Assembly: GCF_040802235.1 (NCBI RefSeq)
Contig: NC_133162.1
Coordinates: 823,501-887,500, forward strand
Source of the DNA: Manis javanica
Taxonomy: Eukaryota > Chordata > Mammalia > Pholidota > Manidae
Direction: 5' to 3'
DNA length: 64,000 nucleotides
Shown: positions 16,001-26,209 of the stretch, one piece after another
Numbering within the stretch: position 1 is the stretch's first letter
Layout of the letters: every line of letters begins with the position of its first letter
The notes under the pieces: model-generated
The model's input: only the letters and a program-made list of their open reading frames with translations
What the model was told of the DNA's origin: nothing
Databases searched by the model: none
Made by a program: the position numbers and the translations under genes

Positions 16001-19000
16001 GTGGGGGCCAATCCTGTTAGTCAGCCCAGCGGGGCCGTGCTGCCGAGCTGGGCCCCCGGCCACCAGGCTGCTTCCAGAGGGCTGGAGGCCGGGCCCTGTG
16101 GAGTCACCCCTCTTCGCTCTGAGTAGGTGGGGCTCTTACAAGGTCCCCTTAACCCCCAACCATGGCTGATGTTCGGGCTGAGACAGGAGTCAGAAAGCGC
16201 CCACCTTGAAAGGGGACACACTCCGCAGAGATTCCTCAGCGACATCCTCAGTCCCATGGAGGCGTATCTGAGGCCACTGTTCCCGCTGCTCAGGGGCCCT
16301 GAAGCCAGGTACCTGCTGGACGGGACAGCTCCCTGTGCTGAGGCGGTGGCTGCAGGCAGGGGAGGTGCTGAGTGGATAGCCTGAGGCCTGGGGGGCACGA
16401 GGCTGACAGCCATCTAGGGACAGACAGGAGGGTCACACTGCCTGTCCCCACAAGGGCAGTGGTGCCCAGGGCGGGCTCGAGGGTGGGGGCCTCAGCCTGA
16501 ATCCCAGTGCCAGCCGAGGCTGGCTGGGGGACAGGTGGATGTTCACAAGTGGAGGCTCACATCCGATACCACAACTCCGTGTGTCTGACAAGCTCCACTA
16601 GTGCTTAACTGGACTGTGTCCACGTCAGTGAGGAGCATGCCGGGGCCCTTGTGATCCCGAATGCCTGGTGCTGTCCATCCGTGCTGGGCACGTCCCCGCC
16701 GCTTAGGTCCCCTCTGCCCTCTGAGCCCCTGATCGGGTGCAGGGTGGGAGGGGAGGGCATGGCAAGCGTCTCTTATTTTTGGTAGGACAGAAGCAGAGGG
16801 GCTGGGCACACGGCACCATTTAGATTTGCCAGTAGACGGGAGGTAACCCTGAGTCCTGTTTGCTCGCATTTGCCAGGGCCCCCGTGGGCCCCCAGAGGTG
16901 AGCTGCAGAGGGTGACATGTGGCACTCACTGTCTTAGTGTGAAACAGTCCGTCCACAGGGAGGTTCTTCACATTCTTCGTATACGTCGTTTTTGTGCACT
17001 TTTAAAAACCTGAATGTGTGCCTTTGGCTTTCAGAGTGCAGACTCCCTCAGTCACTGCAGATCTGGGAAAACTGAAGGTCAAAGGCCAGGAGAAGGATGT
17101 GTCCCTGCCTCAGGGTGAGTGGCAGCTGGTGGGGACTTGTGGCCTGTGGCTTGTGTTGGGACCCCCATCCATCTGTGCAGCATGGCCAGGAGCAGGGCCC
17201 CGTGTCTGAGCGTTGTCCAGGCGCCGAGCATCTGGGTGGGGGTGGGTTCCCATTTCCGCCAGCACCACTGTTGACCAGCACCCTGGCCCAGCCAGCTGCC
17301 TGCCCTCAGGGGCCCGGCAGCTCCACGTGCATGTGGCGACAGTGGTGACAATGTGCAGTCTTTGTATGGGGCCATGTTGGCTGTCACCATCTCATGTTTG
17401 TACACCCCACATGACATGAGGGCTATGTGGACGGAAAATGGGCCTCCGGGTGAGTGTGCGGAGGCCACCCGGCCTGCAGACAGGTCAGTGCTGGTGGCTT
17501 CGTGGCACCTGTGCACTTTCAGTACAGACCCCCTTGTTTCTCACTCAGTGTGCTTAAAGGTGTCGCAGTGTCAGGCTGGGAACAGTGTGCCTTGGTGGTG
17601 CCCTCCCCCAGCACCGAGCTGCCCTCAGCGCTGCCGGCTGGCACTGAGGGTGCAGGGCTCAGGAGTATGTGTAGCTGTTAAGAAAGTAAGTCACAGTTTA
17701 CACTCGGGTTAAGAAGTCAGAGCCTGACTCACTGAGGCCACTTCTGCGAACTGAGAGTTGCCCTAAAGATTCCCAGGTCAAGACACTTGCTTGGTTTTAA
17801 GTAGTTTGTTTTTAGTTTGTAAAATTCAAACAGTCCAGTGGCCTCACCCCTTAACACTGTCTGTGCCCGCCCCAAGGGGTGGGTTTCTCTAACCAGCCAG
17901 GCAGGCCCAAAGGAGGGCCACCTGGACATGCTGCTGATGCCCCTCCCACAAGAAGCTTCCCTGGGGAACAGGACCTCTCTCTGGACCATCCTTCTGGAGG
18001 GATTAGTGCAAATTTTCATCCTGTGAAGGGGTTCCATGGTGAGAAGGAGCCATGCACCCCAGGACCTGCATGGGACGGGCTGCCAGAGCTAAGCAGGTCC
18101 TCAGAGCTGCAGAGGATGGAGTCCTTGCCACCTGGCTGTGCCCAGCCCGAGCTATGACTCAGCTGCATCCTTGGAGGGCCCCCGTGTGCCACCCAGCTCA
18201 GGCGACAGGCAGGCTTGTGGCCAGCAGGCTTACCCTGGGAGCTTTTCGGTCTTTGGGCCCATCTCCTGGGGCCGTGCAGCTGGTGTTCTTGTGCCCACAG
18301 TTCTGCCTGAGACTGCAGACAACCTCATCCTCATCGTGGACAGGCACCTCCTGGAGCTGCCGCTGGAAGGGCTGTCGGTGTTCAGCCAGGGGGTGGTCTC
18401 CTCCTTGTCCCGGGAGTTCTCGCTCCAGATGCTGTGGAATCGCCTCAGCAGAGAGGAGACGGGTAAGAGCCACCGTGGCCCCGCCGTGGCCCGACTCTCT
18501 CTTTCCAGAATGGAGCGGTCAGGCCACTGTGAATGGGGAGCATTAACTCATTACACAGGATCATCAAACGCTGCAACATTTTCTAGGTTTGTGCAAAGAT
18601 GTTACAGAGCAGTTGTGCCAAGGGCTCTGTGTTGGTGCTGAATGTGCGTGCGTGCTTGCACACACAGAGGGAGAGAGAAAACTGTTCTTGGCCTCAAAAC
18701 TGCTCAAGAGGCAGGCACGCGGGAGCCATTTGCCAGGTGGGGAGAGGCAGGGCAGGGTCAGGCCTGGGGCAGCTGGCTGCGTGCTGTCGCTGGGTGTGGT
18801 GACACAGAGACCCCGTCTGTGGGAATTCTGCAAGCTGTGCACATGTGCTGCATGCAGTTTTCAGCATGCATGTTGCACTTCAATAAATATCAAGAAAAAT
18901 GAAACATAAATATATTGGACTTCTGCTTCCATCCAAGAAGTAACAGGGACCAAATCTGCCCTTCCAACTGAAATAAGAAAAAACCAGACAGAATACATGA

Positions 19001-26209: not shown

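Follow-up and report, generated by a model that had tools for sequence, protein, structure and literature searches.

CFAP46 probably ends in a divergent and catalytically inactive separase-like domain

The window, the whole 64,000-nucleotide stretch of Manis javanica DNA that was analysed (C7:823501-887500 in a genome of 2.56 Gb), carries 14 exons on the + strand between 14822 and 25106, separated by 13 GT-AG introns with agreeing phases, which join into a protein of 429 residues. Residues 1-416 of this protein align with mouse CFAP46 (chain of 9ijj, 2175-2593) at 522 bits and with a few short gaps, and the 285 residues encoded by the last nine exons match the same mouse chain with an E of 3.6e-108; identity to mouse was 62% and 59% in two alignments. 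Judged by its sequence, the gene is CFAP46, as had been recognized in the initial annotation. The interval 18301..25098 proposed there does contain nine exons with AG/GT junctions and continuous phases, which join in frame and encode the quoted peptides in the order given, but the stop codon (TAA, 25104-25106) ends eight bases further on and the start was placed too late, as five upstream exons (14822-17114) add an adjoining part. When the 285-residue protein was searched against the genome, eight of the 12 matches were significant and corresponded to the window's own exons, the other four having E > 6; no further significant match pointed to a second copy of CFAP46. The exons are the following:

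14822..14919, + strand: CFAP46 exon, opening a hairpin-like stretch that precedes the protease-like part (joined in phase; aligns with mouse from 2175 onwards)
15192..15268, + strand: CFAP46 exon (in-phase joining; mouse alignment)
15789..15883, + strand: CFAP46 exon (in-phase joining; mouse alignment)
16229..16308, + strand: CFAP46 exon, helix (the equivalent mouse helix is where the mouse C50 match begins)
17035..17114, + strand: CFAP46 exon, charged linker (in-phase joining; mouse alignment)
18301..18462, + strand: CFAP46 exon (exon n of the initial annotation), separase-equivalent block, the separase counterpart ending in VTRLPSFRFL (Pfam C50; separase profile)
21606..21676, + strand: CFAP46 exon, Lys-rich insertion (39% identity to mouse over linker 2)
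21819..21879, + strand: CFAP46 exon (in-phase joining)
21957..21992, + strand: CFAP46 exon, probable counterpart of the separase stretch starting YVLNP (joining; hhalign)
22398..22500, + strand: CFAP46 exon, separase-equivalent block (joining; Pfam C50; hhalign)
23127..23239, + strand: CFAP46 exon, His loop, Met replacing His at codon 23182-23184 (C50 match reaches the loop; hhalign register)
24286..24367, + strand: CFAP46 exon, Cys loop, Thr replacing Cys at codon 24315-24317 (hhalign to separase and to CHAT agree)
24794..24930, + strand: CFAP46 exon, separase-like last strand with NQWP (hhalign; without a Pfam match alone); we take the CHAT consensus at this position to be AFLAAGARSVVASLWPVDDEA
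25012..25106, + strand: last CFAP46 exon, last helix and stop TAA at 25104-25106 (joining; mouse alignment; hhalign)

The first of these exons aligned with Chlamydomonas FAP46 2248-2279 at only -0.9 bits. TPR repeats, which had been proposed to precede the protease domain, gave no match in the five upstream exon-like stretches examined. At and just past the stop codon (25103-25135) there is a short repeat, CCTAAAACCTAAGA. Downstream of CFAP46, a GC-rich region encodes a homeobox-like peptide at 47078 (+ strand), which we take to be probably NKX6-2, a neighbour of CFAP46.

The Pfam model for separase, Peptidase_C50 (PF03568, curated cut-off of 27.8 bits), matches the three CFAP46 orthologues in overlapping profile register, and only the mouse protein exceeds the curated score. 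For the window, the match had an E of 2.8e-5 (profile 213-336), or 2e-5 with the upstream exons included, both under the cut-off at 23.9-24.4 bits. Mouse gave 1.6e-6 (28.0 bits) and, with a longer piece, 1e-7 (31.9 bits), both over the cut-off, with the match covering 102-308 of 419 residues. Chlamydomonas FAP46 2415-2504 was just under it on its own (E 5.8e-6, 26.1 bits) and also under it when joined with the other two blocks (E 1.9e-5, 24.4 bits). None of the eight decoys of the window protein (one reversed and seven shuffled) matched C50. The human separase domain itself scores 244 bits with C50 and, with CHAT (PF12770), 21.8 bits, which falls short of the cut-off of 24 for that family. A scan of the genome with the C50 model, one exon at a time, found a single gene on C10 (two exons), an ordinary separase with YAGHGAG and FGCSSAA intact, and did not list CFAP46; the CHAT model found a single frame on C15, which we take to be TTC28 and refer to as the TTC28-like frame. 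Pfam reported no family for separate CFAP46 pieces (five from the second half and two upstream), the NCBIfam search had no match, and the 103 pattern matches obtained from IMG/VR with the CFAP46 alignment included none that was confirmed.

A separase profile built from PDB chains (human, yeast and C. thermophilum) was compared with 5001 decoys, those left unscored being counted as lower. Of the decoys, 7 of 5001 scored as well as the window protein, compared with none for mouse, none for Chlamydomonas block 2 and 58 for the TTC28-like frame. Block 2 had been placed by colinearity, at a mere 1.5 bits, before its own C50 match. Chlamydomonas block 3 was no better than shuffles (871/5001 decoys and 503/3000 shuffles as good). 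With the first half alone, no shuffle among 3000 did as well as either the window or mouse, and with the second half alone 325/3000 (window) and 212/3000 (mouse) did; the signal sits in the first half, as far as the His loop. In the reverse direction, a three-sequence CFAP46 profile searched against 177635 PDB sequences had C. thermophilum separase as its best non-CFAP46 matches (E 0.045-0.057), a result that is no more than suggestive; this profile alone found separase, which was missing from the matches listed in five other PDB searches queried with CFAP46.

Profile-profile alignment (hhalign) of the three CFAP46 sequences with the three separases gave a P of 1.5e-4 and a probability of 51% over 185 colinear columns, and a P of 2.6e-4 when the upstream CFAP46 exons were added. 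The fuller alignment pairs the LPLE block with its separase counterpart, and also YGM with AGH (YGME on GHG), RTRS with GCSS and NQWP with NLWD. With fewer sequences the match weakened (P 0.007, probability 5.5%, 185 columns; P 0.0072 over 35 columns in another run), and in the thinner 185-column alignment the His loop agreed while the Cys loop was shifted by one residue, leaving Arg at the Cys position. The second half alone aligned to separase with a P of 0.13, over 18 columns and in a different register. Confidence in the separase-like reading is lowered by both the one-residue shift and the second-half alignment. When the second half was permuted, 59/200 permutations did as well against separase, and an off-register local match, onto VTDRDIDRYTEALLQGWLG as judged by its end points, scored 33.2 compared with 34.7 in register. 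Sequence homology of the first half to separase is well supported by these comparisons, and the Cys loop and the last strand look credible by order and spacing, being not significant alone and not proven.

At the catalytic positions, the alignment places Met in the window and in mouse, and Val in Chlamydomonas (GVG), where separase has its His; at the nucleophile position the two mammals have Thr, whereas Chlamydomonas has Cys. Human separase has its dyad at H2003 and C2029, according to a part of PMC9729208. The His-Cys dyad of C50 is complete in none of the three orthologues examined, and the His-Gly and SACETG motifs of CHAT are absent from the window protein, which reads YGME and LDRTRS. 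The loss of both catalytic residues was correctly noted in the initial annotation, since the window protein has neither His nor Cys in any register and the fuller alignment keeps Thr at the Cys position; the Tyr before Gly, which it had put at the His position, gives way to the Met of YGME (23182-23184). Comparison of FAP46 2615-2703 (7n6g chain) with residues 299-374 of the window's joined protein also revealed an S..Q..L..P motif common to both mammals and Chlamydomonas and found in none of the three separases, as well as a His (FLSH, FAAH) that follows the Gly in the YGM/GVG loop by seven residues, again in mammals and Chlamydomonas and not in the three separases. Both are candidate marks of a function specific to CFAP46.

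Identity between the window and mouse is highest in the LPLE/SR block (76%), the block from the His to the Cys loop (72%) and the VDP..RW.GHLGN block (67%), followed by the last strand and helix (62%) and the upstream hairpin and helix (58%), and it falls to 34-39% in the three linkers or insertions. The old active-site region thus seems to be kept under constraint despite the loss of the dyad, and such constraint, seen in one species pair, would fit a binding function better than decay. Here it is proposed that the last ~270 residues of CFAP46 are, with good probability, a separase-like protease domain (C50, clan CD) that has diverged and is catalytically dead.

The reading given in the initial annotation, a CHAT-like caspase fold, retains its clan, as the C-terminus does appear to hold a clan CD (caspase-fold) relative, and yields on the family, the nearest being separase and not CHAT. 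According to a part of PMC9729208, separase is closely related to CHAT, and TPR-CHAT structurally resembles separase; the class was thus right and CHAT would be the sister of the best family. No Pfam CHAT match was reported for the window, mouse or Chlamydomonas with the E limit set to 10, which is stricter in effect because the HMMER filters remove most matches above about 0.1, and C50 was matched instead; the same library finds a plain CHAT domain, as the TTC28-like frame reached 162.1 bits. A CHAT profile was also built from 80 bacterial loci, which gave 79 open frames and 70 domains of accepted length. Against whole proteins this profile was no better than shuffles (1103/3000 as good for the window, 715/3000 for mouse), and with first halves 159/3000 and 115/3000, respectively, were as good, the second half of the window being unscored. 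It scored 83.5 bits for the TTC28-like frame and only 2.2 bits for human separase (2/3000 as good), and the power of this negative is limited because separase itself is barely detected. CHAT as the nearest family was rejected on the lack of a Pfam report in the three orthologues and on the whole-sequence profile. An origin of the domain as a degenerate CHAT, taken from bacterial TPR-CHAT and with no nearer ancestor shared with separase, is considered unlikely. It draws weak support from the second half, where hhalign with the 70-sequence profile reproduced the register of the initial annotation at P of 0.018, 0.038 and 0.057 in three runs, and where only 6/200 and 2/200 permutations were as good against the CHAT domain of the TTC28-like frame; against it, the LPWE of Chlamydomonas is identical to that of human separase, and the yeast and C. 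thermophilum separases read FPWE.

A short convergent stretch (LILIVD..LPLEGL..SR..SLQML) within another fold would account for the bulk of the signal lying in ~45 residues and for a second half that is not significant alone. This is quite unlikely, given that the Pfam match of mouse covers 102-308 of 419 residues, that hhalign aligns 185 columns in order, and that a Chlamydomonas block matches C50 unaided. It is very improbable that the protease is still active or regulated in some lineages, through another nucleophile or through the Cys of Chlamydomonas. That Cys does fall at the nucleophile position when CEAALLFDRCNT of FAP46 is aligned by hand with CRAVALLFGCSS of human separase, but both mammals have Thr there and the His loop has no His at its position in the three orthologues compared (Met, Met and Val).

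The TTC28-like frame has its CHAT domain at L003 1510-2253 on the - strand (C15:80816579-80817325). It reads VVLGSSQES where bacterial proteins have VVLSACETG, with Ser replacing the catalytic Cys and the His (ATHIS) kept, and it is likely, on these motifs, another pseudoprotease with a true CHAT domain. No relatives of this frame were confirmed in genome contigs, and a PDB search with it returned one weak CHAT protein.

Separase is the enzyme that lets chromosomes part, and CFAP46 belongs to the shaft at the centre of beating cilia, as one of the proteins that make up the C1d projection. For the separase-like domain proposed here, we infer how the second half folds, that activity is lost and that the role is one of docking. 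As a pseudoprotease, it would most likely act in binding: the former substrate groove or its surface would dock a C1d peptide or subunit, and the docking would keep CFAP46 attached to the proteins around it on the C1 microtubule. In the mouse sperm central apparatus, CFAP46 connects to SPAG6, LRRC43 and CFAP74, according to a part of PMC12297659, and the partner of a rigid pseudoprotease might be one of these three, perhaps bound via the old groove. Flagella of the Chlamydomonas fap46 mutant lack C1d, as stated in a section of PMC7999657. Two statements count against a separase-like fold: C1d of Chlamydomonas is described as predominantly helical in a portion of PMC9113940, and PMC12297659 speaks of structural differences between CFAP46 of mouse and that of Chlamydomonas. 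It is possible, if somewhat doubtful, that CFAP46 and separase are ancient paralogues that arose, earlier than the divergence between algae and animals, from an ancestor with a long solenoid and a C50 domain, CFAP46 becoming a central-pair scaffold upon loss of the dyad. The Cys in Chlamydomonas would then be a relic, and the dead groove would bind a peptide of a partner in the way that securin is bound by separase.

Among the matches listed, no description of a relation between CFAP46 and separase was found in the largely open-access literature searched. The searches returned no paper on CFAP46 with a CHAT domain and none on separase-like proteins with cilia or flagella, and the one paper that names both CFAP46 and separase does so without connecting them. 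The terms separase and caspase have 0 occurrences in a term search of the text of two structure papers (PMC9113940, PMC12297659), and the table of a 2021 review gives no domain for FAP46 (PMC7999657). An automatic annotation of C50 may already exist, since the mouse protein passes the Pfam cut-off. Placement in the separase family would give CFAP46 a domain and a putative binding site, would help in interpreting missense variants in its C-terminus, and would hint at a common ancestor of a cell-division protease and a ciliary scaffold. Variants in CFAP46 reportedly cause primary ciliary dyskinesia, according to the title of a 2024 work by Wohlgemuth cited in PMC12766463.

Among known systems, the nearest is separase (ESPL1/Esp1, C50, PF03568), which, like CFAP46, is a very large protein with the domain at its C-terminus (2329-2593 of 2641 in mouse CFAP46; 1891-2120 in human separase, whose chain has 2160 residues). 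The order of motifs is also shared, with LPxE, SR/TR, DP/NP, RW.G.LG (GW.G.VG in separase) and NxW. Unlike separase, mammalian CFAP46 has both His and Cys replaced, carries a Lys-rich insertion and is a ciliary protein, and its second half has no significant match alone. CHAT (PF12770), as in bacterial TPR-CHAT proteins and the TTC28-like frame, belongs to a related clan and shares the second-half register of VVL..C/T and G..SV....WP, whereas CFAP46 lacks both a Pfam CHAT match and a whole-sequence signal from the 70-sequence profile. A third likeness is to FLIP(L), a soluble signalling protein that belongs to the caspase family and not to C50. The likeness would lie in an inactive caspase-type fold that is a paralogue of active enzymes, as described for this pseudocaspase in a part of PMC7586951.
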